Of a stretch of 44,429 nucleotides of DNA, positions 2,666-37,300 are shown in pieces; position 1 is the first letter of the stretch, and each line of letters starts with the position of its first letter. Location of the stretch: the NCBI GenBank assembly GCA_020720045.1, contig DYPH01000037.1, forward strand, positions 1 to 44,429. Direction: 5' to 3'. This DNA is from Sorangium cellulosum (GTDB lineage Bacteria; Myxococcota_A; Polyangia; Polyangiales; Polyangiaceae). The translations under genes were made by a program, and so were the position numbers. A model generated the notes under the pieces. The model saw nothing but the letters and a program-made list of their open reading frames with translations. It was not told the DNA's origin and searched no databases.

Positions 2666-3193
2666 TTACCCCCGCACCCGCTTCCGAAACCGCTTCAGAA
2701 CGTCCGCCGTCACTCGCCGCGTCCCCGATGCGTGAAGCGCCTCGACGCGTCCGTCCGCGAAGCGGGAGACGGCGCGGAGGTCTCCACGAACGCGTGCGAG
2801 CGCTCGTTCCCGTTCAAGCGCGCCGTGGTCGACAAGATCGAGGAGCAACGAGAGCCCCCATGCGATGTCGACGCCGTGAGCCTCGCATTCGCGCCGGAGC
2901 CGACGATCGTTGGTGACGCACGTCGCCGCTAGCTCTTTGGCGAGAAGCAGGCAGATCCAATCGTCCATCGCGAGCGGGTGCCCCTTCGCCCGATTCGCCG
3001 CGTCAAACAGCATCTCTAAAGGGGCATCGGTCACGACAATGCCGAGTGCTTCCACTTCGTCGCGTGAAATACTCGTCACCGCGGCAACAACCGCCGCCGG
3101 AACATGCACGCTCGCGATCCGCCGATGAACTTCCGTCAGAAGCTCGCGGCCCATCACGCAGAAATCGATCAGGACGTTCGCATCGACGATCAA
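2666..3193 (-). CDS. PIN-domain ribonuclease, probable type II toxin
   Basis: This 175-residue PIN domain has the expected acidic cluster: Asp4 in VDANVLID, Glu46 in the SRDEVEAL helix, Asp77/Asp78 in AMDDW, and Asp96 in TNDRRLR. PIN toxins use such residues to bind Mg2+ and cut RNA. The segment after TNDRRLRRECEAHG, ending in a helix with LLLDLVDHGALE, is typical of the COG-type VapC-like proteins that pair with non-VapB antitoxins. The start is TTG at 3193, 18 bp after the stop of the XRE/ImmA gene and with no in-frame ATG or GTG nearby, so translation is probably coupled to that gene. The antitoxin-first order suggests a toxin-antitoxin operon. The toxin role is inferred; the RNA target is unknown. 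Confidence 0.82.
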   Translation of the reverse strand: MIVDANVLIDFCVMGRELLTEVHRRIASVHVPAAVVAAVTSISRDEVEALGIVVTDAPLEMLFDAANRAKGHPLAMDDWICLLLAKELAATCVTNDRRLRRECEAHGVDIAWGLSLLLDLVDHGALERERALARVRGDLRAVSRFADGRVEALHASGTRRVTADVLKRFRKRVRG

Positions 3194-4464: not shown

Positions 4465-5079
4465 CTATGGACCACCACGAGAGAGCGTCGGCGGCGACGG
4501 TGAACGCCTAACGCCCATCCGCCCGCGGCGAAAACCAGTCCGCGGAAACATGCGTCGCAGCGCGTCCTTCCGCGAAGCGGGAGACGCCTCGGCGCGGGCT
4601 TCGCTTGCCACGAAGAGGTCGATCCCGCCGTCGTAGGGGGCGAAGGCCTCCCCGGTCGCGACCGAAAACCAGACCGCCCGGAGCGCGTCGTTCGCGATTT
4701 CGTCGATGAGCGCCTCGAAGAGGCCGGGCCCGTGGGGCCAGGTAATTTGCGCGACGTCGACGCGCAGCGGCTCGCAAAACAGCGGATGCTCGCAGCGACC
4801 GCCCGCCACGAGCGTCACGGGAAGGCGGTCGAGGATCGAAGGCGCCTCGTAGAAGGACGGGACGACCAACCAGACGGCGCTCCCGGCAGGGAAAAGCGCG
4901 GCGGCGGCGGCCCACGCGCGGCGCCGAACCTCCGCGCGCTCCCCGTCTTCTTCCGCGTAGCGCTTGGACCCGGGGAGCGAGTGGAGGCGCAGCCACCGGT
5001 CGCCGTGGTCGGCGCGAAGGCAGTAACCGACGGGGGCCGTCGCCCCGAAGTGCTCGCGGAACCAGTGGTCAAACCGCAT
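4465..5079 (-). CDS. DUF3885-like protein
   Basis: The protein begins MRFDHWFREHFG at 5079 and is about 204 residues long; a longer frame to 5142 adds only low-complexity Arg-rich residues, so I chose the internal ATG. Segments WLRLHSLPGSKRY (about 29-41) and PYDGGIDLFV (about 147-156) match the conserved ends of DUF3885, a family of unknown function often encoded near toxin or immunity genes. No signal peptide or membrane segment is visible, so it is probably cytoplasmic. The last 15 residues (RRSPSPPTLSRGGP) do not look like the family and resemble translated repeat DNA, so the native C-terminus may have been altered. The function is unknown; the family match is moderately sure. Confidence 0.6.
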   Translation of the reverse strand: MRFDHWFREHFGATAPVGYCLRADHGDRWLRLHSLPGSKRYAEEDGERAEVRRRAWAAAAALFPAGSAVWLVVPSFYEAPSILDRLPVTLVAGGRCEHPLFCEPLRVDVAQITWPHGPGLFEALIDEIANDALRAVWFSVATGEAFAPYDGGIDLFVASEARAEASPASRKDALRRMFPRTGFRRGRMGVRRSPSPPTLSRGGP

Positions 5080-5110
5080 TGCGAACCGTATCGGCCCTGG
5101 CGGGCGCCCA

Positions 5111-5208
5111 CGCAAATGCATACGTGCGCGCCGTTTCCTCACCGCCTACGGCGGTTCCGGGCGGACGCGCAACTGCATTCGCCCGCGCCGTTTCCTCACC
5201 GCCGACGA
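5111..5208. repeat. Tandem imperfect repeat, 57-bp period
   Basis: Two 41-bp copies (5111-5151 and 5168-5208) match at about 35 positions, with the block CGCGCCGTTTCCTCACCGCC identical in both. They lie in the gap between the divergent DUF3885 and 88-residue genes. With only two copies and a 16-bp spacer unlike any CRISPR spacer, this is a small tandem duplication or a pair of interspersed elements. It may contain the promoter of either neighbour, but I see no clear hexamers. Confidence 0.65.
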
Positions 5209-6148: not shown

Positions 6149-6664
6149 ATGAACTACCGCGAGCCGGCGAACCCGAAAGAGTGGACGATCGAGACGAAAA
6201 CGTCCGCCGCCGACCGCGTCAAGGAGCATCGGAAGGTCATCGAGGGCTACGATTCCATTTTTTGGCAAGAGACCGTCGGATTGGCCCTCGTCGGTGCTGC
6301 GCTCGCTTCCGCCGTAGACTCGCCGCGCGCCCCCGACGACGTGCCTCGCATCCTTGCCGTGACGGTCATCGTCGCCGCCCTCTACCGGTTCGCGGTGGTG
6401 CCGATCCTCGTCCGCGCAACGAGCGTTGCGCCGTTTGACCCTTCAGCTCTGCGAAGAAGGATTCGCCTTTGAGTGGGAGGGGGATGGTCGTTCACCCACT
6501 GGCACAGCGTCGAAGAGGTCGCCGAGACCGAGAACTGCATCGGCTACCGAATTGGCCTGATCTTCCGCGCGATCCCGAAGAAGGCCTTCCAGCCCGGCGA
6601 GGAGGCGATCTTCCGCGCCATCGCTGCACGGAAGATCGCCGCCGCCAAAAAGCCGAACGAATAA
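6149..6664 (+). pseudogene. Decayed copy of the adjacent YcxB-like membrane protein
   Basis: The first part (6149 to about 6422) encodes MNYREPANPKEWTIETK and two hydrophobic segments, closely matching the first 100 residues of the intact gene at 6735. It then jumps directly to sequence matching the last 75 residues. The reading frame changes at the junction (ALRRLTLQLCEEG is in another frame from 6423) and shifts back near 6490, so that WSFTHWHSVEEV continues to 6664 in the original frame; an in-frame TGA at 6470-6472 interrupts it. Relative to the 1104-bp intact copy, about 590 bp are missing. The tail is still very similar at DNA level (CCCGAAGAAGGCCTTCCAGC occurs in both), so the duplication is fairly recent. 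A short two-helix product could still be made, but the gene is broken. Confidence 0.75.
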
Positions 6665-6734
6665 GGGAGGTTTGTGCGCCGGCACGTCGGCTCTTCGACG
6701 AGAGCGAGTCAACCGAGGTATGCCTAAACCCACA

Positions 6735-7838
6735 ATGAACGACCGCGAGACGGCCACCCCGGAAGAGTGGACGATCAACACAAGCACGACCGCCGAAGAA
6801 CGTGCCGAAGCCCACCGGGAACTCATGGGGTTCTACAGCGGCTTTTTCTGGGGGGAAGCTGCCGGCATCATGTTCGTCGGTGCGCTGCTCGCGACGGCGG
6901 TTCGAACGTGGAGCGACCCCGACGCGGCGCCACGCATCCTCGCCGCCTCCGCGATCGGCGCCATCCTCTACCGGTTCGCCGTTGCGCCGGTCCTCGCCCG
7001 CGCGACCCTCGCCCGCACACCGGCCCCCGCGCCGTCGGTCACACTCCGGGTCAGCGACGAAGGGCTCGGCATCGCCAATAGCCAGGGGAACGATTTCTAT
7101 GGCTGGGACTGGGTAAGCGACATCGAAGAGAAGGGCACCGGGGCAAAAGCCAACGTTTCCATCGTCTTGCGGACCTACCATGAGATCGCGGGGCCGGCGA
7201 CGAGGTTCCCCAAAGAGGCGCTCGACGCCATCCGGGCACGGATCAAACCGGCCGGCAGCGGGACGACGCGCACCTCGAACACGTGCGTCGATCGCGGTCT
7301 CACGCCGATCGCCGGCGGGCTCGTCCGCTTCCGCGAGTCGGGCGACACCGTCCTCAACCCGACGACGCGACCGCCGGTCCTTTCCGCCGCCGAAATCCTC
7401 GCCATCCGCGTCCCTTTTGCGCTTCCGCCCTTCCTCCTCGCCGCCCAATCCGAGCAAGCCCGCCACTGGCCCCACAGCGCCTATACGGTCGGCGCCCTCG
7501 CCCTCTCCATCGCGTTTGGTCGTATCCTGTTCACCTTCGTCCCCACGCAACAGAAATTCGCGCTCGCCCGCTTCAATCTGCTCTTCCAAGACAAGGCTCT
7601 CCGGCGATTGACCGTCCAGCTTTGCGAGGAGGGTCTCGCCTATGAGTGGGACGGGGGATCGTCGCTGACCGAGTGGCACAACGTCGAGGCGGTCCCCGAC
7701 ACGGAGAAATGCATCGGCTACCGTATCGGCCTCATCTTCCAGGCGATCCCGAAGAAGGCCTTCCAGCCGAGCGAACTCGAAGCCTTCCAGGAGATCGCTG
7801 CGCGGAAGATCGCCGCCGCGAAAAAGCCAAGCGAATAA
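6735..7838 (+). CDS. YcxB-like membrane protein with two repeated halves
   Basis: About 367 residues. Two hydrophobic helices near residues 30-75 (GIMFVGALLATAV and AASAIGAILYRFAVAP) are followed by a soluble segment with FYGWDWVSDIEEKG; then a second hydrophobic pair near 220-280 is followed by a similar soluble segment with LTEWHNVEAV, ending in IPKKAFQPSELEAF. The membrane pair plus PH-like soluble domain, with a W-x-x-V core and a 'pKrAf' end, is the pattern of YcxB-like proteins, whose function is unknown. The protein therefore looks like an internal duplication of that unit. I chose the ATG at 6735 by alignment with the decayed copy upstream (MNYREP and MNDRET); the ATG at 6720 is an alternative with a closer GAGG. 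Confidence 0.65.
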   Translation: MNDRETATPEEWTINTSTTAEERAEAHRELMGFYSGFFWGEAAGIMFVGALLATAVRTWSDPDAAPRILAASAIGAILYRFAVAPVLARATLARTPAPAPSVTLRVSDEGLGIANSQGNDFYGWDWVSDIEEKGTGAKANVSIVLRTYHEIAGPATRFPKEALDAIRARIKPAGSGTTRTSNTCVDRGLTPIAGGLVRFRESGDTVLNPTTRPPVLSAAEILAIRVPFALPPFLLAAQSEQARHWPHSAYTVGALALSIAFGRILFTFVPTQQKFALARFNLLFQDKALRRLTVQLCEEGLAYEWDGGSSLTEWHNVEAVPDTEKCIGYRIGLIFQAIPKKAFQPSELEAFQEIAARKIAAAKKPSE

Positions 7839-7844
7839 AAGAGA

Positions 7845-8606
7845 TTAGCGCTGGGGCACTCCGTGGAGGTGGCCCGTCTTCACCCAAATGGTCGCCCCCG
7901 TGCGCGTGAACGGGCGATGGCGGCTCCCGCTCGGGTTGCGGAGCCAGGAGCCTTTTGGGTAGCTCCCGTGTTCGTCTTCAAACACGCCATCCAGCACAAA
8001 GATCTCTTCGCCGCCGGGGTGCATGTGTGGCTGAAGGATGGTGCCAGGGGCCCGTCCGTTCGCGACAGCCAGCAAATTCCCTAGCGGAGGCGGCGCGAGA
8101 GACGGCGGGCCCACTTCGACAGGGGCCCACCGTACAAGGGCAACCGCCTCGGTAAGATGGGAATGAAGCGGAAGGACCGCGACGCCGGGGACCAAACCGG
8201 GACGCCAAGCGGCATGCGCGGTATCAATCACAACACGGGCGCCGTCTTCCGGGTGGAACTGACGGAGCTTCACGAGGAGCGTGCACCCGTCGTCACTGGA
8301 GGGAGCATGGTGAGAACCGGGCGGATTGCGGACGTAGGTCCCCGCCGGATAGACGCCATGTTCATCGGCAAAGGTGCCGTCGAGCACCAGGAACTCTTCG
8401 CCCTTTTCGTGGGCATGCGCCGAGAACCGCGAGCCTTTTTCATAACGCACGAGCGACGTCGCCCGCGCGACCTCGTGGCTCCCCCCCTCGTCGACGATGC
8501 AGCGATCGAGCAGTTGGCGCTCCACCCCCGCCATCGGCGACGGCGTCCATGCCTGTTCCCCGGGAAGGACGACCGCACGCTCCGAAAAATCAGCTCGAAT
8601 TTCCAT
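7845..8606 (-). CDS. Double ChrR-like cupin protein
   Basis: This 253-residue protein has two cupin domains of the ChrR type. Domain 1 (about 45-115) has likely metal ligands His64, His66, Glu70 and His99/100 in the HAHEKGEEFLVLDG context; domain 2 (about 150-245) has His194, His196, Glu200 and His230 in HMHPGGEEIFVLDG. ChrR cupins bind zinc and act in anti-sigma factors or as small-molecule or redox sensors, but no sigma-binding N-terminal domain is present here, so this is a free-standing cupin. Residues about 163-187 of domain 2 (from VEVGPPSL to NGRAP) are absent from domain 1, where RYEKGSRFSAH runs straight through. They are encoded by the palindromic repeat at 8045-8128. The protein lies in a minus-strand pair with the SRPBCC gene. 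Confidence 0.82.
   Translation of the reverse strand: MEIRADFSERAVVLPGEQAWTPSPMAGVERQLLDRCIVDEGGSHEVARATSLVRYEKGSRFSAHAHEKGEEFLVLDGTFADEHGVYPAGTYVRNPPGSHHAPSSDDGCTLLVKLRQFHPEDGARVVIDTAHAAWRPGLVPGVAVLPLHSHLTEAVALVRWAPVEVGPPSLAPPPLGNLLAVANGRAPGTILQPHMHPGGEEIFVLDGVFEDEHGSYPKGSWLRNPSGSRHRPFTRTGATIWVKTGHLHGVPQR
8045..8128. repeat. Palindromic coding element, copy 1 (in the double cupin gene)
   Basis: The core runs 8048-8112, 65 bp from GGGCCC to GGGCCC, with arms GGGCCCGTCCGTTCGCGA and CGCGAGAGACGGCGGGCCC forming an imperfect inverted repeat. It shares its first 19 and last 19 bases with copy 2 at 10475-10539; the centre differs. The 9-bp direct repeat CAGGGGCCC flanks it at 8045-8053 and 8120-8128, 75 bp or exactly 25 codons apart, so it adds in-frame residues to the cupin. 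The flanking repeat and its absence from the first cupin domain support insertion. Confidence 0.8.
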
Positions 8607-8659: not shown

Positions 8660-9136
8660 TTAGCGCGCAGGGTTCAGGACCTCCTCGGTCAGCCGATCGA
8701 GGTTCTCCTCGTTCGCCGGGACGACGATCGCGGCGACGTGGGCCGCCACCGCGGCGTCTTCAAACGCCTGCCCCCAGCCGACGGTCGTGCGAGTTCCGTC
8801 TTCGGAGGCGGTCAGCGTGATCGTCAAGACAAACACGGGAGCGTTCACGTGCTCAATCACGATCCGTCCGGGCAGAAGTTCGCGCCGTCCCCCGCTTCGC
8901 GGACGGACGCGTGGCGCCGCAACGCTGCGAAACCGGCACTCGTTCGCGTAGCGCGCCCCGTCGGGGGCGACCATCGTGAAGAGCCAGCGCCCCCCGTCGG
9001 CGATAACGCACTCGGTCACCTCGTTGCGGAAGCCCTTCGGCCCCCACCACGTGGCGAGGCGCTCTGGCGTAGAAATCGCAGCAAATACAGCATCTACGGA
9101 GGCTTGAATCTCGCGTGAGGTGGCGAACGGTTCCAT
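8660..9136 (-). CDS. SRPBCC (AHSA1-type) domain protein
   Basis: A 158-residue START/Bet v1-like protein of the AHSA1 class. Visible marks are IQASVDAVFAAISTPERLATWWGP (about 10-33), DGGRWLFTMVAPDG (47-60), the strand RIVIEHVNAPVFVLTITLT (91-109), and the C-terminal helix with EENLDRLTEEVL. Such proteins bind hydrophobic ligands or assist other proteins in the cytoplasm; the ligand is unknown. The loop before RIVIEH is unusually long: about residues 70-90 (SVAAPRVRPRSGGRRELLPG) replace what is normally a few residues. The DNA there has an inverted repeat, CCGTCC at 8864-8869 with GGACGG at 8901-8906. The start at 9136 was chosen because the domain begins there; the longer frame to 9310 is Arg-rich. 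Confidence 0.82.
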   Translation of the reverse strand: MEPFATSREIQASVDAVFAAISTPERLATWWGPKGFRNEVTECVIADGGRWLFTMVAPDGARYANECRFRSVAAPRVRPRSGGRRELLPGRIVIEHVNAPVFVLTITLTASEDGTRTTVGWGQAFEDAAVAAHVAAIVVPANEENLDRLTEEVLNPAR

Positions 9137-9213
9137 GCCCCGCCTCTTAGAACGGCACCGCCCATCGAGGAAACCGCGACCGCACCGCTGGGAACCGTCT
9201 ATAGCTCCTGGTG

Positions 9214-10869
9214 ATGGGGCCAGGTGAGGTCGTGTGCGTAACGTGGGGGCCCGCGAGCGGGTTTGGCGGGCCGTCGATCGCGCCGACCGCCGACGCCGTC
9301 GTGGCTGCAAAGGCGGACGCGGTGCTCGTCCCGATCCGGAGCCTCGACGACCTCGCAGCGGCGCGCGTGCTGATCGCGGGGGTCGATGCCGCCCTCGGTG
9401 TCGGCGCCGTGTCCTTCTTCGCCGCCCTCTCGGAAGCGGTCTGTGCGGTCCTCCCGGAGGACTTCCCGCCCCCGTTTGAAGGCTTCGCGCGCATCGAAGA
9501 CCCTCAATTTCGCAGCCATATCCGCGCCTGGGTCCACGGTCTCAAGAAGGCCGGCGCACGCACCGCGCAGGCGGAGGCCCGCTACGCGGCGCTCTTCGCC
9601 CACATCAACGACGCCGCCGTCCTCGCCGACGCCGATACCGGCACCATCCTCGACGTGAACCACCGCGCCCTCGAACTCTGGGGGAAGAGCCGCGACGAGC
9701 TCGTCGGTCACTCCCAGGCCTCTCTCCATCCGAGCAGCGAGACCGGCCGTCAGATCTTCGCCGAGCACCGCAAAATCCTTGAAAAGCATGGCTTTGCGCC
9801 GGCGACCGAGTTCCCGATCCTCCACAAGGACGGCCGGATCATCGACGTCGAGATCAGCGCCTCCCGCTTCACGATCGGCCCCCACGCGCGCCTCCTCGGG
9901 CTCTTCCGCGACTGCACGGAGCGCAAAGCAAACGCCGCCGCGCTCCGCGCCCACGAGGTCCAGCGGGAGCGCTCCGAGCGCCTCGAAGGGCTCGCGACGC
10001 TGGCGGCAGGAGTCGGCCACGAGGTCAACAACCCCCTCGCCTATCTCATCGGAAATCTTGAATTTCTTTCTGTTGAATTTGCACGCAACAAGCTCCCGGA
10101 AGACCTCAGCGATGCCCTAAGGGACGCGGTCGCCGGGGCCTATCGCCTCCGTACCGTCGTCCGCGGTCTTGAAGCGCTCGACCCCGGACCGGTGCGCCCA
10201 CGAGCCCCCTCGCCGCAAGCTGCAAATTCGCTCGCAATCGCCTCCTCCCGCGAGGCGGCGCGTGCCGCGAGCGCGCGGGTGAGCGAAGCTGTCGACAACG
10301 CCCTGGAGAGCCTCCGCTTCCGCCACGCCGGGCTTTGCACGATCACGGTCACGCCGGTCTCCGAGGTGCTCGCGGTCCAGCTGACGCCGACCCGCCTCAC
10401 GCAAGTCCTTGTGAACCTTCTGGCAAACGCCCTTGACGTCTTCGTCACCGCCCGGCGCGACGCCGGATCAGACGGGGCCCGTCCGTTCGCGACCGCCAAC
10501 GAAATTGCTGGCAATGGCGTCGCGAGAGACGGCGGGCCCACAAAGACAGGGGAGGGGGCCTCCGAGAACCGCATCGAAATCAACGTTACCGCCGACGACG
10601 CCTACGCGACCATCGCCATCACCGACAACGGCATCGGGATGACGCCCGAGGCCCTTCGCAACGCCTTTGATCCTGCATTTACAACAAAATTCCCCATTTC
10701 GGGAACCGGTTCCAAGGGGCGCAGCGGCCTCGGGCTCGGGGTGAGCAAGAAGTTCGTTACGACGGCCGGCGGCACCTTGACCCTCACCAGCACCCCGCGC
10801 AGCGACGGCAGCACCCCCTCGGGGACGACCGCGACCGTTCGCCTGCGCCGCGCGGAAGATTTCTCGTAG
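9214..10869 (+). CDS. PAS-domain sensor histidine kinase
   Basis: About 551 residues. Residues 1-115 resemble no family I recognise (an alpha/beta segment without membrane helices). A PAS domain follows at about 125-235 (YAALFAHINDAAVLAD to GLFRDCTERK), then the dimerisation and phosphoacceptor helix with GVGHEVNNPLAYL (His270), then the ATPase domain: N box NLLANALD (about 402-410), G1 TDNGIGM (471-477), G2 GLGLGVSKKF (507-515). No receiver domain or adjacent response regulator is seen; the next gene has a winged helix but no receiver. It has no transmembrane segment, so it is probably cytoplasmic. Two palindromic elements sit inside the coding frame: about residues 326-352 between the dimerisation helix and the ATPase domain, and about 421-450 in the lid/N-box loop. 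Start: ATG at 9214 (GTG at 9211 is equally possible). Confidence 0.88.
   Translation: MGPGEVVCVTWGPASGFGGPSIAPTADAVVAAKADAVLVPIRSLDDLAAARVLIAGVDAALGVGAVSFFAALSEAVCAVLPEDFPPPFEGFARIEDPQFRSHIRAWVHGLKKAGARTAQAEARYAALFAHINDAAVLADADTGTILDVNHRALELWGKSRDELVGHSQASLHPSSETGRQIFAEHRKILEKHGFAPATEFPILHKDGRIIDVEISASRFTIGPHARLLGLFRDCTERKANAAALRAHEVQRERSERLEGLATLAAGVGHEVNNPLAYLIGNLEFLSVEFARNKLPEDLSDALRDAVAGAYRLRTVVRGLEALDPGPVRPRAPSPQAANSLAIASSREAARAASARVSEAVDNALESLRFRHAGLCTITVTPVSEVLAVQLTPTRLTQVLVNLLANALDVFVTARRDAGSDGARPFATANEIAGNGVARDGGPTKTGEGASENRIEINVTADDAYATIAITDNGIGMTPEALRNAFDPAFTTKFPISGTGSKGRSGLGLGVSKKFVTTAGGTLTLTSTPRSDGSTPSGTTATVRLRRAEDFS
10186..10262. repeat. Palindromic coding element, degenerate copy 3 (in the histidine kinase gene)
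   Basis: Less well preserved than copies 1 and 2. On the minus strand a frame reads AASREEAIASEFAACGEG then RGRTGP, which matches the same frame of copy 2 (AVSRDAIASNFVGGRERTGP). The TGCAAATTCGCT block and the GCGAGGCGGC arm match the copies' centre and right arm. It lies about 210 bp upstream of copy 2 in the same gene and reads through in frame. Confidence 0.5.
10474..10560. repeat. Palindromic coding element, copy 2 (in the histidine kinase gene)
   Basis: The core is 10475-10539, also exactly 65 bp from GGGCCC to GGGCCC, with arms identical to copy 1 over the outer 19 bases at each end. The homology continues past the right GGGCCC to GACAGGGG. Flanking GGGGCC words at 10474-10479 and 10555-10560 are 81 bp (27 codons) apart, so the insert keeps frame. 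It lies between the N box and the strand NRIEINV of the ATPase domain. Confidence 0.8.
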
Positions 10870-27697: not shown

Positions 27698-28336
27698 TCA
27701 TCGCGCGGTCGATAGGCGCTCTTTCGCCGCCCTTTCGCAGGCCACGATCGCTTCGGTGATCGTGGCCTCGTCGGTTTGTGGAGTGACGCGGATCGGCGGT
27801 CCGAGGACAATAGAAACGCGGGAGAACGGCCACGGGATCTGAAATTGATCCCATGCCTTCCGAAGCACATGGACCTGCGAGCCGGCCGCACCGAGCGGCA
27901 CGATTGGGACCTTAGAAAGCCGCGCGAGCACGAGAACTCCCTGTTTTGCCTGATGAAAGGGGCCCCGCGGCCCGTCGACGGCCGTCGCCGAATCGCACCC
28001 GCCACGCACAAGGCGCAAAAGCGCGCGTAACCCCTGAGCGCCGCCGCGGCTCGACGACCCGCGTGCGATCCGGAAGCCGAGCCGGCGGAGCAGCACCGCC
28101 TGGAGAGCGCCGTCTCGCGAATGGCTCACAAGCACAGCGAGCGGACGCGGCGCGTGGGAGAGGCTCCAGCGGAGGCCGAGCATCTGGCTTCCGTGGAAGA
28201 ACGCGAGCGCGTAGCCCCCTTCGGGGACGGCGCCGACGACGGTGACCCGGAGCGTCGCGACCCAAAGGCGGACCACAAACGAAAGAAGCGCCCCCAAAAA
28301 AGGGCGCTCTTTCTCAAAAGAAGGGGGCTCGCTCAT
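27698..28336 (-). CDS. DUF374 family lysophospholipid acyltransferase
   Basis: A 212-residue membrane-associated acyltransferase of the DUF374 (PF04028) type. Motifs are AFFHGSQM (46-52, His48 as the likely catalytic His), VSHSRDG (70-76), ARGSSSRGG (91-99) and DGPRGP (121-126). DUF374 proteins belong to the broad LPLAT superfamily, with related members transferring acyl or sugar-linked groups to outer-membrane lipids; the substrate here is not known. A hydrophobic N-terminus (LLSFVVRLWVATLRVTVVG) suggests inner-membrane association. Its ATG overlaps the giant TPR gene's stop (ATGA, 28333-28336), so it is the downstream gene of that transcript. Its 3' end contains the hairpin at 27740-27767. 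Confidence 0.86.
   Translation of the reverse strand: MSEPPSFEKERPFLGALLSFVVRLWVATLRVTVVGAVPEGGYALAFFHGSQMLGLRWSLSHAPRPLAVLVSHSRDGALQAVLLRRLGFRIARGSSSRGGAQGLRALLRLVRGGCDSATAVDGPRGPFHQAKQGVLVLARLSKVPIVPLGAAGSQVHVLRKAWDQFQIPWPFSRVSIVLGPPIRVTPQTDEATITEAIVACERAAKERLSTAR
27740..27767. terminator. Strong UUCG hairpin at the ridA/DUF374 convergence
   Basis: GGCCACGATC (27740-27749) pairs with GATCGTGGCC (27758-27767); the inner GC/GT pair closes a TTCG loop, giving a 12-bp stem with a UUCG tetraloop. It is 48 bp past the ridA stop and just inside the 3' end of the convergent DUF374 gene, so it could end ridA transcription. T-rich sequence after it is modest (CGTCGGTTTG). Confidence 0.55.
28281..28313. 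other. Hairpin in the start of the DUF374 gene
   Basis: GAAAG-A-AGCGCCC (28281-28293) pairs with GGGCGCT-CTTTC (28302-28313) around a loop of C and A residues. On the minus strand it lies about 25-50 bp into the DUF374 gene, shortly after the giant gene's stop, where it could attenuate transcription or slow translation between the two coupled genes. It might equally be a by-product of the Lys/Gly/Leu codons there. Confidence 0.35.
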
Positions 28337-31300
28337 GCAAGCGAAGCGAGCGCCGCCTTCGTCGGTTCGTGGGCAGGGTCGGCCTGAAGGGCTTTCTGGA
28401 ACATCTCCTTCGCCTTGGCCGCATCCCCTTGGCGACGGAGAATTTCACCAAGGAAGTAGAAGACTTCCGCCTTGGTGATGGCCGTGGAGCCGTCGAGCTT
28501 CTGCAACAGAAGCGCGCGGAAGCTGCGCTGGGCGCGCTCCAGATCACCGGCGTCGAGCGCGAGTTCACCAATGCGGCGAAGCACGCGAATGTTGCCCGGC
28601 TCAATGCGGAAAGAGGCGTCGTACTGAACGAGGGCGCCGGCCGGGTCCCCCTTCGCTTCAAAGGCCTCCGCGAGCTTCTGGTGGACGACCGCGAGCTCCT
28701 TCGAGCGCCGACCATTGTAGGATGCAATGATCTTCTCCAGGGCGGTCGCTGCCGCTTCCGGCCGGCCACGTCGAAGCTCAACATCGGCGAGTTCCGCAAG
28801 AATATCACGGCTCTCGGGGACGATCGCGAGCGCCGCTTCAAGGACGCGTGCTGCGCTCTCGTGGTCCTCGCCGTAGGCGGTCGCCGCCTCGCGGAAGAGG
28901 GCGACCACTTCCACGGCCGGCCCCGCGGTCGGAAGCAGGCTCCCGCCGACGTGCGGTTCACCGGCGGCCGGCTCGTTGCGGAGACGGAGACGGGCGATCG
29001 CTTCGAGGAGCGGGGCGAGGCGTCCACGATCCCCCTGCTGGGTGTAAATCGCGCGGAGGGCCTTCGGCGGCTCCGTCGCTTCCGGGTCGGCTGCCAGCGC
29101 CGCTTCCCAGGAGCGCTGGGCCGCGTCGACATCCCCCGCCGCCGTGTAGAGGCGGGCAAGACGAATGCAGAGTACACTCTTCTCCGTCCCTGAGGCCTCC
29201 GCGGCGAGCGCGTCAAGGGCGCGAAGGGCGGTCGCCCGGTCGCCAGTCGTCTCGGCGAGGTGAGCCATTTTCGCGAGCAGTGCGACGTCGGCGCCGCCAC
29301 AGCTCTCGACGATCACCAGCGATGCAAGGGCGCGTGCCGTGTCGGCGAGCGTCTCTTCGGAAGCGGCGGCGGCCCGTCGCGCGAAGGCGATGGCAGCCGA
29401 GCGCCCCGCTTCTCCAACGGAAGCGTGGTGTTGGGCGCGCTTCTCCCAGAAAGAGACCTGCGCCGCCGTTTCCGCGTGGGCGACGAGCAGCGCGTCGAGG
29501 CGCTCTTCTGCCCGCGCATGGTTCGCGTCGTCTTCAAGGATTTGCGCCAGGAGGGCGCGCCGTTCTTCCACGGTGCTGTCGCCAAGCGTCTCGAGGGTGA
29601 CGACCGCCTCCAGAAGGCGCTCGCGACGCGCCTCGTCGTGGGCGGCACCGGCAAGAACAAGAAGAAGATCGGCACGTTCCCGGTGGGCGTTACGCGCGGC
29701 ATAGAGGCCAAGGAGGGCGTCGGCAGCGTCGGCACTCGCGAGCTCCTTGAAGGCGCGCTCGAAGAGCCGAACGGCATCGTCGCTTGAACCGACGTCGCGG
29801 AGAGCGGTGGAAGCCGCTCGCAAAAGGAGCGCCTCTTTCTCGTCTTCGGCGGCGACGCCTGCGCGGCGTTCGATAACGGTCACGAGCGCGGCAAAATCCC
29901 GCTTTCGTTCAAGAACTCCCGCGAGCGCATCGAGGGCAAACGGCGCGTCGGTGAGGCGCTCAAGCGCCTCCCGTGCAATCGCTTCGGTCACCAGATCGGC
30001 GTCATCACCGAGAGTAGCGGCGACCGCAAGCGCCCGAACAAAGAGCGCTTCCGGCTCGGGAGCGAGCTTCGCGCGGGCGCGGAGCGTGGCCACGAGGGCG
30101 GCAGGTTCCGCGAGCGCTTCGAAGAGCGCCTCCTGCTCGGAGAGGACGCCGTCGTCGGCAATTCCGAGCCCGCCAGCCGCTTCGAAGAAGGCGATCGCTC
30201 GGCGGCGGTCGTCGAAGCGATCGCGGACAAGGCGGGCGAGGGCGAGCGCCTCCTCGCGACGATCGTCGCCGTCGGCGGCAGCGAGGGCCGCCGCTCCAAG
30301 GAGATCGATGGTCGCACCGACCCGTTCTGCAGCAACGGCAAGCTCGAGAATTCGCTCGCGAACTTCGCTTCCCGAACGGGCGAGCGCCCCTTCCGCGGAG
30401 ACCCGCGCGAGCAAGACGTCCAGCGCCGCGCCGGGATCCTTGCGTGCCTCGGCAAGGACGTCGGCGAGGGCCAGCGCGGCGAGCACGCCCCCTTCGTCAG
30501 CGGCGAGAGAACGGGCGAGTCGTGCCTCGTGAAGGGCGACGCGGCGGGTGACATCCTCGGCGTCCGCAAACAGGCGGTCGGCCTTCGCAAAAGCCCGCGC
30601 TGCCAGCGTTTTCCCGTCCCCGCCGTCGTTGGCGGCAAACGCTTCAAGGGCAGCCAACGCAGGCATGTACGTCGCGCGAACGGCGAGCACACTTTCCAGT
30701 CGGCCAAACGCCCCTTCCGCAGAGACGTTCTGCTCGTGGGCAAACGCGCGGAAGAGGTGCTCGGCGCGCATGTCGACGTCGAGGTCCTCCGGCTTTGCGC
30801 GCTCGGCAGCGACGGCGGCGGCGGCGGCAAATTCACTCCGCGAAGCATGGAGCGCTTCCAAGGCGGCCAGGGAACCAAAGCCGTCGGCATGGAGGTCGGC
30901 GGCGGCGCGGAAGGCAACGAGTGCGCGCTCAGCGGCATTCAACGAATCGCGCGCGATCTCCCCTTCCAAATGGCGAAGCAATGCGCGCGTTTCCGTGCCG
31001 ATCGGCCCCGCTTCGAAGGCCATCTCGTCGGTCGCAAGGCCGAGCCAACGGTCGGCAAGGCGCTCAAGGGCATCCCCACCAGCAGCGCCAGCGCGCCCCT
31101 TTGCAAGTTCGCGGACGGAAGCGATCGCACTACGGCGACCGAGCGCCGCCATCGTTGCGTCGAAGGCTGCCTCGGCGTCCCCGGCCCGTTCGTGAACGGC
31201 GGCGACGCGCAGGGCGAGATCGGCGTGGGAATCTTGGCCGACGTCGTCGGTTCCAAAAGCCCGCTCGGCGAGCTTCGCGACGCGGAAGAAAAGCGCGTAG

Positions 31301-34300
31301 TTTTCGCCCTCTTCGAGCGGAGAAAGGGTGAGAGAAACCGCCGCCTCCGCGAGGCTTCCGTTCTTTTCGGCGAGGGCAACGAGCTTGTCCGCGACGGCAG
31401 CGTCGAAGGCGCCGTCGTTGAGGAGGTCTCGGTAGCCGTCAAAGGCGTCGCGTGGCTTCCCCAGCATGTCGGCGCGCAGCGCGGCGAGGGAAAGACGAGC
31501 GGGCCGAGCGTCGGCGGTCCCGAGCTTTTCAATCCGTTTGAGGGTGATGCGCTCGACGTCCTCGTACTTCTGAAGTGCGAAGTAGCAATTCGCAAGTTCT
31601 TCCAGGGTTTCCGCATCGTCGCCGCCCGCCTCTACAAGCCCTTCGAGGATGGCCGCCGCGGCGGTCGGATCTTCATTTTCTGAGAGCTGGAGCTTCGCGT
31701 TCAAACGCGACAGGTCGCGCCGAAGCGTCTTTGCGTACTCGCCGTCGTCGTCGGCTTCAATGGCAGAAATACGGCGCGGGAGCACCGTGAGGAGCTTCTG
31801 GCCCTCACCGAGTGATTCCCAGAGTTCGATGCATGCATCCTGCAGGTAGGTGCTGGACGGATCGAGCTCGAGGGCCATCTCGTAGGCAGCCGCGGCGCCG
31901 GGCGGATCGGCAAGCATGTCCCGCTTCGCTTCGCCGATTCGAAGGGCAAGCGAGCGACGATCGTCGTCGTTCCCCGCGAGTTTCAACAGCTTTTCAAGGA
32001 CCGACACGTGAACGGCCCAGTCTGCGAGAAGCGTCGAGAGTCGTTCGGCCTCTTCCAGGGCTTGTGCGTCTTCCGCGTCCGCCTCGATGACCGCGCTCCA
32101 GGCGCTGAGCGCTTTGCGCGGGTCGTCGCGCCGTTCGTCGTGAACGCGCGCGGCCGCCACAAGAAGCGAGCGGCGGTCCTCCCCTTCGGCGCGAAGGAGA
32201 GCGGCGTCGTAGGTATCGGCGAGGACGTCCCAAGCGGCCAGCGTCGTCGCCTTTTCTTCAAAGAGCGTGCGGATTTCGAAGTCGCCGGGCTCCCGCGCGA
32301 AAGCGTCGGCGAGGGTGGCGAGCGCCGCCGAAGCGTCGTGGAGCTGCTCCTCCTGGGCACGCGCCTTCCGACGCCGGAGCGACGTCGCGAGGTCGCGATC
32401 GAGGGGCGTCACCCGCACCAGGCGCGCGTCAAAGACGCGGACCAGATCGGTGTACATTCCCCGCGCTTCGTAACCGGCGTCGAGGACTTCCAGCGCACGC
32501 GCGGCAGGACTTTCAGGAGAAATTTCGGTCGTCTCTGCTGCAGCGACAAACGCTTCGAGGCGCGCGGAGACGTCTTCGCAGAGCGCCGGCGACGCGTCCT
32601 TGTCGAGGGCGGCTGCGAGGGCGTCGATGGCGTCGTCGACGCGTCCCGCGCCGGCGAGGACGGCGGCACGGTCGGCATGAGCCTGCGATCGTCGCTCAAG
32701 CGATTCGCCGTGGATCGCGATGTGTGCGTGAAGCGCTGCGAGCGCATCGACGTCGCCCGTGGCTGTGTAGGCGTCGATGAGGGCGCGCGCCGCCGCTTCG
32801 TCCGCCGGGGCGATCTGCAGGATGGTGCGCCACGTCGCGACGGCAAGGCCCTCGCGAGCGTCCGACGGGAGATCCTTGGCCTCAATCACCGCAATAAGGT
32901 GAAGAATTTCGACGCGTTCAGCAGACGCATCCTCGGCAAGGCGCCCGAGTTTGTCGCGCTGGTGGGCGATGCGCTCTTCGTGGCGCCCGAGGGCGAACAG
33001 CAAGCGATCGACCGCGCGGAAAGCGACGTCCCCGTCGGGGGCCCCGCGATGGGCGCGCAGGTTGAGAGCGAGGGCGCGGCTCTGGTTCTCAACGCCGCTC
33101 GCCAGTTCGAAGAGCGTCGCGGCACGAAGCGCGAGGCGGACGGTGACGTCGTCTTCCTCGGCGCGCTCCGCAAGGATTTTCTCAAGAAGCTCGGCGAGGT
33201 CGAGCGGCGTCCCCCGCCGTCCGTCGCTCGCCTCACCGGCGCGTTCTGCGAGGCGCTCCAGCTCCTCGAGAGGGCGCTCCGCAGCAGCATCGAGGGCAAG
33301 CGCGGCCGCATGGGCGGCGAAGGCGGCCCCCAGATCGTGGCGCTCAAACTCATGAATTTGCGCGGTATTCGCAAGGAGTTCACGACGAACGGCGAGGTCC
33401 TCGCCCCCTTCCGTGGCGAGCACGAGGCGACGCTCGAGCACGCGAACGACGGAATCCCACCGGCGGCGGTCGCGGAGCGCCCCTTCCAAAATTTCGGCGG
33501 CGCGGAGCGCTCGTTCGCGGTCGTTGCCGTCGACCCACGCAAAGAGCAGGGCGAGGGCGCTCCCGGGCGGCGCAACTTCGGCATCGTCGGCGACCGTCGG
33601 CGTCACCGCGAGCGCCGCCTGGAGGACGTCAAACGCCTCATCGACATCGCCAGTCTTGTCGGCCAAGACCGCCGCAACCGCCGTCCCACGGGCCGCTTTT
33701 TCCGCGGCGTCGTCGACGGTGTCGGTGCGGCCACGAAGAAGCGTAACGAGGTCTCCCCAGCGCTCTTCGGCGGCAAGAAGCCGCTCAAGACCTTCAAATG
33801 CGGCCGCTTCGTAGCGCTCGGCGAGCACCGCTTCGAAGGTCTCGATGGCGCGCCCCGGCTCGCGGAGGGCCCCTTCAAGGAGCGCCCCCAAACGGAGACG
33901 GGCGGCAATGCGTGCATCTTCCCCGTATTCCGCCGTCGCGCGCTGTTCGAGGATTTCTGCAAGGCGCCCGGGGGCGTCCAGCTTCGCGAGAACCCCCTCA
34001 AGCGGAACCAGCACCGCCAAGTCGGCAGGACGAAGCTCAAGCGCCCGCTCAAGGTACTCGCGAGCCGCCTCGGTGTCGGCAAGTTCTTCGGCACTGCGCG
34101 TGCCAATTTCTAGAGCAAGTTCGCCGCGAAGTGTATCGTCGGGAAGCTCGGAGAGCACATCTCGGAAGAGACGGAGGACACGAACGCTCCCCTCCCCCGG
34201 CTCACGACTCACCGCGCCATCGGTCGCAACCTCTTTCATCGTCGTCCCGAGCGCCAACGCACTTTCGCGGGCACGCTCAAGCCAGCGCGGGAGCGACTCC

Positions 34301-37300
34301 TCAGAAACCGCTGCATAGACGCCACGCTCGGCAAGCGCGAACGCCGTTTCGTGGGCGCCCAGGCGCGAAGCGACCCCATGAGCGGCGGCAAGCGCGACAA
34401 GCGCCTCCGCCGGGTCGTCTTCGTCTTTCGAAAGGACGTCAAGCACCGCAAGGAGCTCCTTCGAGTCCCCTTCGCTTTCGAGGAGCGGCTGAAGAACGAG
34501 GGCCGCGGCGCGCGCCGCAACCGGGTCTTCGACGAGCAAAAGCAGCGCTTTACGAGTACCGGGGTGGTCCGGCGCGAGGGCCAGGGCGTCGCGGTAGGTT
34601 TCAACGGCGGCGATCGGCTCCTCGAGCTTCTCGGCCCGAAGCTCGCCGACCGTTCGGAGGATCTCGACGCGCGCGAGGACGTCGTCCTCGACCGCCAAGA
34701 GTTCTTCAAAAACCTCCACTTCCGCGGAAAAATCGCCAGCATCATGCTGGAGCCCGGCGAGTGGGACGAGCGCCTCTCGGCTCGGACCGAAGTCGTCGAC
34801 GATACGGCGGTAGGTCTCAATCGCCGCCCCCGGCAACGAGAGCGGCCCCCGCTGGAGGGCGGCCAGCGCGAAGAGCGACTCGCGACGAACGTCGGGCGTC
34901 GACGCGTGCTCCTCCCGAGCGACCAAGATTTCGGCGCGCCGGGCGGCGGGACCGAGGCTGGCGTAAAGGCGGTCGAGGGCGGCAAGGGCCCCTTCGTCCC
35001 CGTCGTCGGCGGCAAGTTGCTCCTCCCAGACGGTCACGGCCGCCTGCTGGTCCGAGAGCGTACCCTCCAAAAGTTCTGCCAATTCGGCACGTAGCGCGCG
35101 ACGGCGTTCGGGATCGAGTTCGAGCGGAACCGCCCGCGCAAGCGCCTCGCGCCGCTCGTCGTGCTTGCCGGCCGCCGCTGCCGAGCGCGCGAGAGCCAAG
35201 AAGGAAGGCAGCGCGTGGTCGGGATCCTCGGGGTCGGTCGCGACGACTTCGCGATGGGCCGCCTCCGCGCCAGCGTCGTCGCCAAGGCGCGCAAGCAGCG
35301 TCGCGAGCTCGGCAAGGAGCGCCACGCGGAGCCCCTTGTCGCTCACCGGCTCCGCAGCCCGCGCAAGGGTCTGCGCATACTCGCCAAGGCGATCGGTCTC
35401 CGCGGCAAGCGCGGCATATCCCTCACGAATTTCCGAATCGGCCGGCACGCGCGGTAGGAGCTTCGCGTAGACGGCAAGCGCCCCCAAACGGTCGCCGACG
35501 ACGTCTTTCTTCAGCTCCAGGAGCCGACGAAGCAGCGTCTCGGCCTCCTCCTCATCCTCGGTCTCGGTCTCGGCCTCGGTCTCGAGCCGCGCCTCAAGAA
35601 CGGCGATGAGCCGAGTTGCGTCTCCATTTGCAACGAAGCACGGCTCCAAAGCGGCGGCGGCTGCGCGCCGAAGGTCGGCGTTGGCAAGAAGCGCAAACAC
35701 CTCGTCGAGCACTTCCTGGTCGTCAGCGGCGTCTTCAAGAACGAGCGCGAGCAGCGGAAGGGCGCCGCGGGCATCCTTGAGAGCCCGGAGCCGCAACATA
35801 CCGAGTTTTCTCCGTAATTGGGGCACATCGTCGCCGATCGCTGCCGCGAGTCGCCGGTCGAGCACGGCAGCAAGGCGATCCCACTGCTCCATCCGCGTGT
35901 AGAGCTTTTCGAGGGCGATGAGCGACGGCTCATGGTTCGGTGCACCGACGAGTGCCTTCTCGTGAAGGGCGATCGCGCGCTCGGGGTCCTCGGCGATCTC
36001 TTCAGCGACAAGTGCCGCATCCGAGTAGCGCTCAATGCGAATATCCGGGTCTGCAGCACTCTCCGCAGCACGCTCAAAGAGCGCGAGAAGGACGTTCCAC
36101 TCGCCTAGCGCCGAGAGAATTTGCCGGAGGCGCTCAAAGACGCGATCGTTGTCCGGTGCCTTCGCGAACACACGCTCAAGGTAGGGGCGCGCCGCCTCGA
36201 CATCGCCGAAGTGCTCTTCGTGAATCGCCGCAAGTCGGTCGGCCAATTCGCTATCGACCGCCTCCGGGACCGTGCTCGGTCCCGACTTCGGGACGACGGC
36301 AGAGAGCGCCTCTACGAGCGCCGGAAGTGCCCGATGACTTTGCGCATACGCCTGAAACGAATCCCAGCCGCTCAGGTCGCTCGGCTGCTCCGCGCAGGCG
36401 CGCGACCAGGCGTCGAGGGCGCCGTCTACGTCATTGAGCCCTTCGCGGACTTCGGCAAGAGTCCGCATGTAACGCGCACGATCATCGCGAGAGGCGGCCG
36501 TCGCGATAATCACATCGAGGACTGCCGCGCGCTTCTCGGGATTTCCGTTTGCCGCATGGACCTCTTCCAGGATGAGCGCCGCACGTCCCCGCGTCTCCGG
36601 GACGACAAGAAGATCTTCAAGGACGGCGAGAGCATCGGCATCATCGGAGACGACTTCAAGGGCGCGCTTTGCGGCGGCTAGCGCCGACTGCGGCCGCCCA
36701 CCGGCGACAAACGTCTTTGCGATCGCGACCTCACGGGCCGCACGATCGGTCCCCTCGGCAGCGTCTCGGTCCTTCTCGAGCAGAGCGACTGCCGCGTCGA
36801 GATCCCCCTGCTCCTGAAGCAGCCGTGCGAGCGCGCGTGTCGCGCCGCCGTGGTTGGGAATGAGTTCGAGAATGCGGCGCTGGAGGTCGGCCGCGCGCCC
36901 AAGTTCCTCGAAAGAGCCCTCTTCCAGGGCAGCCCACTCGGTGAGGAGTTCGAGCTTTTCTTTGGTCTTCGCCGGTGCAAGGCGGCGCTCAAAGAGTGCT
37001 CGCACCCCTGCCCGGTCATCGAGGCCCCGCAGATGGCCGTCGAGCGCTTTGATCCACGCGGGCCGGTCGCCATCTTTCGCGGCGCCGTCGGCATCAAGGA
37101 GCGCCAGGTAGCCATCGGAGGCAGCCCGCCGCTGGCCGATCGCCTCGGCAAGCGCGACCTTTTTCAGCAGCAAATCATGGAGGTTCGCCGCATCGGCCAG
37201 CGCGATGCGCGCATCGATCGCTGGGATGATCGTCTCCTCGCGCCCCGCCGCGCGGGCGGCGCGCACGAAGCGATCAAAGGCAGCATCTCCGCCGGCTCGC

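Follow-up and report, generated by a model that had tools for sequence, protein, structure and literature searches.

A hairpin insertion in a double cupin gene

The window, i.e. the whole stretch of 44,429 nucleotides of Sorangium cellulosum DNA analysed here, carries at 7845..8606 on its minus strand the gene of a double cupin (Cupin_7, ChrR cupin-like), whose 253 aa product matches Cupin_7 with E 6e-58. Within this gene lies a 65-bp imperfect palindrome, 8048..8112 (+), which had been noticed in an earlier sequence-only reading together with a direct repeat on its flanks. Both observations hold. The repeat CAGGGGCCC is read on the plus strand at 8045..8053 and again, 75 bp further, at 8120..8128, the right copy being the 3' end of the element; the arms of the palindrome are exact at 8048-8065/8094-8112 and at 10475-10492/10521-10539, and occur twice only in the window, which gives the two 65-bp copies originally claimed. 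For the window alone, shuffling produced two matches in 8 and 4 of 100 shuffles (one figure per arm); that test allowed up to 3 mismatches, both window matches are exact, and the decisive evidence is the genome-wide count given below.

The earlier reading overlooked that the unit is 75 bp long, not 65 bp, and that two further families, B and C, are also present in the window. The family A unit occupies 8053..8127 (+), in frame and antisense in the cupin gene, and consists of a core (CGTCCGT..GAGACGGC) at 8053-8106, a right foot GGGCCC at 8107-8112 and a tail to 8127. The left foot GGGCC of the 65-bp palindrome may belong to the target rather than to the unit. In the cupin alignment, the 25 residues APVEVGPPSLAPPPLGNLLAVANGR form a clean 25-column gap in all five aligned relatives (L206, L208, L210, L211 and L212, the loci with an aligned reading frame among nine from other genera offered to the script), which bears out the suggestion of an inserted, in-frame coding palindrome. 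Likewise, tblastn matches to the cupin are split at residues 162 and 186 in the genomes G002, G060, G072, G095 and G096; 13 of 108 genomes matched at threshold, the window genome included, and the congener G009 had no match. The empty outgroups show that the insertion in the cupin is the derived state.

The second family A copy, 10475..10539 (+), lies in frame and in sense orientation in a PAS/HisKA/HATPase histidine kinase gene (9211..10869, +), in a stretch which we take to follow the N-box. In the best PDB relative, chain 9jfj_A, query positions 409 to 457 span 7 chain residues; the interval that separates two domain matches of weak score counts 47 residues in the query and 7 in the chain. 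Family B is represented by a 45-bp unit at 8865..8909 (-), in frame in a coding segment of the ORF 8660-9310(-), by another at 2748..2792 (+), which the gene model borders with coding sequence on a single side, and by a degenerate unit at 4563..4607 (+). Two 57-bp repeats, 79% alike, form a family C array at 5092..5205 (-). A search of the window against Rfam at gathering scores gave no match. The window further contains one open reading frame of 3841 codons at 28333-39858 (-), and direct repeats at 6479-6685 and 7653-7859 (122 and 76 nt, 84% and 79%, 1174 bp apart), which are perhaps tandem paralogous genes.

Families and distribution of the elements

The genome holds at least three hairpin families (B, C and D) in addition to family A. 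The family A arm GGGCCCGTCCGTTCGCGA is matched 269 times in the 6.3-Mb genome when up to 3 mismatches are allowed, compared to 11 times for the reversed pattern, as the expectation of further copies had it, and a wider signature derived by comparing copies (CGTCCGT...GAGACGGC; searched as CGTCCGTN{8,38}GAGACGGCG) has 200 genome matches compared to one when reversed. Cores are mostly 54 bp in family A (72 of 97), 26 bp in B and 38 bp in C, and the commonest array spacing of A is 75 bp, with 45 bp in B, 57 bp in C and 39 bp in D. Arrays run head to tail at exact unit spacing, and the logos of the left flanks end in GGGCC (A), aACG (B) and tGCg (C). A sample of 245 kb, composed of the window and 20 contig starts taken at even steps, contained 32 elements (10 C, 9 B, 8 A, 5 D), against zero with reversed patterns; since assemblies often break within elements, contig starts probably hold more of them than other stretches do.

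Among 108 genomes of the family, only the window genome (200) and G009 (73, control 0), the single further member of its genus in the set, stand out for the A/B signature. One to eight signature matches occur in 70 of the remaining 106, and among the matches listed the sequences differ from one another. The strict A pattern retrieved 49 stretches from a named collection, which possibly lacks entries for the genome of the window, and all of them belong to one MAG, JAAFHJ01 (Myxococcales bacterium bin76). The window genome and G009 are draft assemblies in which repeats may be collapsed, and several contigs start or end at A/B copies (e.g., C125, C185, C219, C242 and C321); array lengths and copy numbers are therefore probably underestimates.

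Hairpin structure

Families A, B and C share a common plan, namely a foot stem, a 5' bulged T, a CCG(T)/(A)CGG stem, a 3' bulge or loop bearing GAG, and an apical stem with its loop; in family A this is an imperfect hairpin in which a T bulges out on the 5' side and GAG on the 3' side. Folded as single-stranded DNA, the consensus unit of A reaches -28 kcal/mol (z -4.8 compared to shuffles). Folds were computed for A to C, and the hairpins of B and C are unexceptional against shuffles (z -1.4 and -1.6). Among 90 distinct 65-mers from both genomes, two-sided changes occur at the pairs 13/51 (7), 14/50 (6) and 18/46 (6), the last of which is broken in 13 of the 90 sequences. The invariance of the CGTCCGT and GAGACGGC columns is no evidence because the search pattern fixes them.

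Placement in genes, unit length and stop codons

A self-trained, seven-state gene model with the A-C elements masked placed 149 element blocks, 83 of them confidently, with 45 unsure and 21 at ends. Coding sequence with equal frame on both sides surrounds 39 of the 83 confident blocks, and 4 have the same strand in another frame; the rest are coding on one side (22), intergenic (14) or located between opposite strands (4). By comparison, 69% of 5000 random points fall in the in-frame coding class, equal to 83% of the confident ones, against an in-gene share of 47% for the confident element blocks. Elements are thus depleted from genes, and inside genes the frame is kept. The earlier proposal of an element that spares reading frames consequently stands with regard to its position inside genes (39 versus 4) and does not stand as a preference for genes; the intragenic share, 39 of 83, falls below that of random points.

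All but one of the 39 in-frame blocks are stop-free. They are not all independent, as L179 and L184 appear to be one insertion on two contigs; L171 may be no real element. A Pfam domain (E 1e-5 or better) was found in 13 of the 18 host ORFs scanned from these blocks, the hosts including aldehyde dehydrogenase, P-type ATPase, 3-hydroxyacyl-CoA dehydrogenase, a TRCF-like helicase and MatE. For two of these hosts, the aldehyde dehydrogenase and the P-type ATPase, a domain match encloses the insert.

The main array periods (75, 45, 57 and 39 bp) are all multiples of three. Spacings of neighbouring A-C units are divisible by three in 68 of 76 cases and not so in 8, and the ratio by context is 8/8 in in-frame coding blocks, 53/57 elsewhere and 7/11 at contig ends. 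Tandem Repeats Finder, which is blind to families, returned periods divisible by three in 7 of 10 cases from the even-step sample (3 of those ten being A, B or C arrays), in 48 of 56 from element-centred stretches and in 25 of 28 from loci of G009. Family A units are open in all six frames in 46% of cases, compared to 8% of mononucleotide shuffles and 17% of random genome segments of equal length; the corresponding values are 53%, 19% and 30% for family B, and 85%, 17% and 37% for family D. Family C is not stop-poor, with 8% open in six frames against 17% of shuffles and 23% of genome segments. The sparing of frames is mainly a matter of unit length, to which few stops are added in A, B and D; outside confident in-frame coding context, too, 53 of 57 spacings are divisible by three.

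Filled and empty sites in two genomes

Eighteen aligned pieces of more than 1 kb between element-bearing stretches are 86-95% identical between the window genome and G009. The joined flanks of in-frame copies were sought in G009, and the flanks of G009 copies in the window genome, which gave 30 comparable blocks filled in the window genome and 27 filled in G009. Scoring was restricted to single blocks that differ in length by 40 or more and match in no fewer than 80% of the bases of the empty site, and resulted in 14 insertions. Sites filled in the window genome and empty in G009 comprise 75 bp of family A at L082, L083, L098 and L148, family B insertions of 45 bp at L105, L133 and L145 and of 46 bp at L148, and family C insertions of 54 bp at L119 and 52 bp at L096. 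The reverse state was found for family A at L046 (75), L047 (76), L040 (63) and L045 (51). Eleven of the 14 lengths are divisible by three, the exceptions being 46, 52 and 76. The suspected mobility is thereby supported by empty sites in the genus mate as well as by cupin relatives without the insert. The mobile, multi-family set of hairpins is real, and both in-frame insertion and three-base length are well supported; the polarity of the insertions other than that in the cupin is our inference.

Two differences escape the scoring rule. A 45-bp gap is visible in the alignment of L104, where a second indel hides it, and a 39-bp difference at a D element of L048 is under the limit. Whole-unit differences between arrays of the two genomes occur at L090, L132, L160, L044, L048, L049, L051 and L096; arrays elsewhere differ by other lengths, and some copies are shared without difference. 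Comparisons excluded because the difference was below 40 are, on the own-filled side, L089 (33), L101 (11, -17), L104 (9, second indel), L096A (-150), L110 (-79), L111B (-39), L128 (0), L149 (0), L171 (0), L177 (-18) and L194 (-1), and on the G009-filled side L033 (33, -133), L037 (0), L038 (0, 17), L039 (0), L042 (3), L044 (0), L048 (-75, 39), L049 (-75), L050 (-8), L053 (1, 0), L060 (0) and L079 (18). Arrays of at least two elements were likewise set aside (own-filled: L090, 75; L111A, 141; L132B, 45; L132C, 79; L159, 57; L160, 75; G009-filled: L040, 117; L044, 75; L051, 150; L060, 123; L067, 79), as were L182 (75), which adjoins an N run and an array, and alignments with less than 80% matching (L137, 66; L036, 75; L044, 75, with 66, 75 and 73 in other alignments).

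An exact GGGCC, the unit's own end, precedes the junction in 3 of the 8 scored empty A sites (L083, L148 and L047), and no fixed ACG was seen in the scored empty B sites. In the family C insertion L119, the left site TTGCT arrived with the insert; no strict target TGCK could be upheld for family C, as neither L119 nor L096 fits it. Across the 14 insertions, the tie at the junction varies between 0 and 11 bp and has no constant length.

A candidate RAYT-like enzyme

Pfam Y1_Tnp has weak matches in the window genome and in G009, and the RAYT-like protein of about 314 aa has 12 matches in the former and 14 in the latter at 63-100% identity, some of which are contig-end fragments. Elsewhere in the family, 23 of 106 genomes have 1-10 matches each at 26-37% identity, and the genomes with such distant relatives display no excess of the A/B signature. 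Two copies from the window genome match NCBIfam REP_Tyr_transpos with E 5.5e-9 and 1.8e-10, at 36 and 41 bits and hence below the curated cut-off of 80. A profile of the enzyme, built from 27 relatives of which the program used 16, aligns in hhalign to two canonical Y1 proteins with E 2.2e-8 at a probability of 95, the aligned part covering the region of the HUH and Y...NP motifs. The NH[IM]H and Y...NP motifs are present in all 18 full-length copies, all of which are open, and differences in the 12 copy pairs that were printed lie mostly at third codon positions. A phmmer search of the protein against the PDB returned weak, seemingly unrelated matches only, and a structure prediction from a two-sequence alignment reached a mean pLDDT of 37.5.

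Of 21 enzyme copies, 5 are followed by an A-D element no more than 150 bp beyond the stop codon, compared to 1.8% of random points; on the upstream side, 3 of 19 copies have one at a distance of up to 350 bp. A strict A-D element just downstream is missing in 16 of the 21. The copies are paralogs, and elements common to several RAYT units may have been inherited together with them. The co-occurrence of enzyme and elements is seen in one genus and counts as one evolutionary event.

Unlike A-D, the RAYT units have a left end of their own with a palindrome (CTGGCCCRGGCCAGG). This left end was matched 20 times in the window genome and 15 times in G009, several of the matches lying at contig ends. 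The loci L297-L322 are RAYT-like mobile units with the left end CCCCCCTGGCCCRGGCCAGGCAAATTCG. At L314, a pair of family D hairpins spaced by 39 bp runs into a RAYT-like gene without the common left end. In genomes of other genera, G050 and G100, GGGTGGCGGCCGCCACCC is found directly 5' of several RAYT-like genes, with more copies dispersed in G050, where it occurs 22 times on each strand compared to 3 for the control and, being its own reverse complement, marks 22 sites. In appearance, GGGTGGCGGCCGCCACCC is the left end of that enzyme unit more than a counterpart of A-D.

Mode of transposition and origin of the three-base length

We lean, by a modest degree, towards REP-like, non-autonomous hairpin elements moved as single-stranded DNA by the RAYT-like HUH transposase. 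The hairpin would be recognised as single-stranded DNA by this HUH/Y1 enzyme acting in trans, and its right foot might pair both with a short target sequence lying in the left flank and with the 3' end of the unit itself, similar to guide and cleavage sites of IS200/IS605. Insertion beside the end of an existing copy would generate tandem arrays. Selection among element lineages may have kept stop-poor units of a length divisible by three, which would be retained because they survive landing in genes.

A competing explanation concerns the part assigned to the enzyme. A host recombinase or an unrelated transposase could move the elements, the expansion of the RAYT-like gene being coincidental: CGTC REPs occur elsewhere without an adjoining RAYT (PMC3733652), most enzyme copies have no strict element just downstream, and such elements are missing from other genera that hold several remote relatives of the enzyme. 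We nevertheless judge this unlikely, if to be reckoned with, since enzyme copies of 63-100% identity are confined to the two element-bearing genomes and since the E. coli TnpAREP needs a bulge in its hairpin (PMC8266576), a feature that the present hairpins share. Long inverted arms in family A and short direct repeats around the insert are what one would expect of MITEs, whose terminal inverted repeats are cut by a DDE transposase with a target duplication of fixed length. The junction ambiguity of 0-11 bp over 14 insertions does not agree with such a duplication, and B, C and D are small hairpins (cores of 26-38 bp) in arrays which run head to tail at exact unit spacing, so that a MITE origin appears improbable. 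Even less credit is due to the idea of minisatellite-like units, whose copy number is altered by replication slippage at hairpins after an old dispersal and without current transposition. It would explain whole-unit differences between arrays (L090 75, L132 45, L160 75, L051 150); slippage is, however, unable to make the first copy at a new site, single units are present or absent in both directions, and the cupin outgroups are empty.

The three-base length itself could result solely from selective filtering of copies in genes, without being inherent in the unit. Indeed, each of the six scored insertions that lie confidently in frame in coding sequence measures 75 or 45 bp, and is thus divisible by three, whereas 46 and 52 were found in blocks outside such context and 76 in an unclassified block of G009. 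On the other hand, the 53 of 57 spacings divisible by three come from arrays not confidently in coding frame, and we consider filtering by itself somewhat doubtful. Returning to REP-like elements moved by the RAYT-like enzyme, we tentatively entertain a bolder version, a frame-neutral class of REPs in which lengths divisible by three evolved, which is stop-poor in most frames, colonises coding DNA and is driven by a long RAYT-like transposase of a kind without a known cognate repeat. If true, hairpins would lengthen proteins by whole-codon steps.

Comparison with known systems

Rickettsia palindromic elements such as RPE-1 are coding palindromic insertions scattered in unrelated genes. The elements described here are likewise in-frame coding palindromic insertions in unrelated genes and differ, compared by description, in comprising several families built on one bulged plan, in forming tandem arrays, in keeping a three-base length outside genes too, and in showing filled and empty sites between near relatives. 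In-frame palindromic coding elements have been cited for Rickettsia, Wolbachia and an archaeon (PMC2996958). Di Nocera et al. distinguish GTAG and CGTC REPs, place RPE-4 and RPE-6 among the latter and report intragenic REPs in several species (PMC3733652). Coding palindromic elements as such are therefore not new. The sequence-only reading named none from Myxococcota, and no paper on such elements in that group was recognised from titles and abstracts of the open-access papers searched.

With REP/RAYT systems (REPtron, REPIN) the elements share short, imperfect, bulged hairpins in hundreds of copies (pronounced in A, weaker in B and C) and a Y1 protein whose HUH and Y...NP motifs correspond to class 2 of Quentin et al. 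(PMC6006769). Elements lie beside some of the paralogous enzyme genes (5 of 21 downstream, 3 of 19 upstream). By contrast, no GTAG (GT[AG]G) tetranucleotide is found at the hairpin foot, the units (39, 45, 57 and 75 bp) are long-tailed and arranged head to tail instead of in inverted pairs, and the enzyme is long, has 12-14 matches per genome and a left-end palindrome of its own. In that classification, subclasses 2.1 and 2.3, to which the longest proteins belong, had no adjoining REP (PMC6006769), and the present protein is of comparable length. The same source describes REPs inserted in tnpAREP genes of subclass 2.4 with the frame undisrupted (PMC6006769).

CGTC REPs are described with an unpaired CGTC tag, a stem of 8-9 bp with AT first pairs and a loop of 4-5 nt, and, according to the 2013 survey, seem to be without a dedicated transposase (PMC3733652). 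They have intragenic copies in common with our elements, and the cores of A, B and C begin with CGTC. Here, however, the CGTC is largely paired in the fold and forms no unpaired tag, the stems are unlike those described, and a multi-copy RAYT-like gene is present. IS200/IS605 elements (PMC6006769) are similar with respect to hairpins, and insertion beside a short target, which can resemble the element end, may be a further parallel; no fixed-length duplication was seen here, GGGCC is exact in 3 of 8 scored empty A sites, and junction ties are variable. Our elements differ in measuring only 39-75 bp, with one hairpin and no internal gene.

These comparisons touch on how REP-like repeats move and on why some bacteria carry palindromic insertions in proteins. 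One genus combines filled and empty single-unit sites, four families with lengths divisible by three and a candidate enzyme in many intact copies, so that transposition and frame-neutral selection become directly testable. The elements work like both REP/RAYT systems and Rickettsia palindromic elements, yet they have neither the GTAG foot nor the unpaired CGTC tag, and we do not file them as a member of any of these groups.
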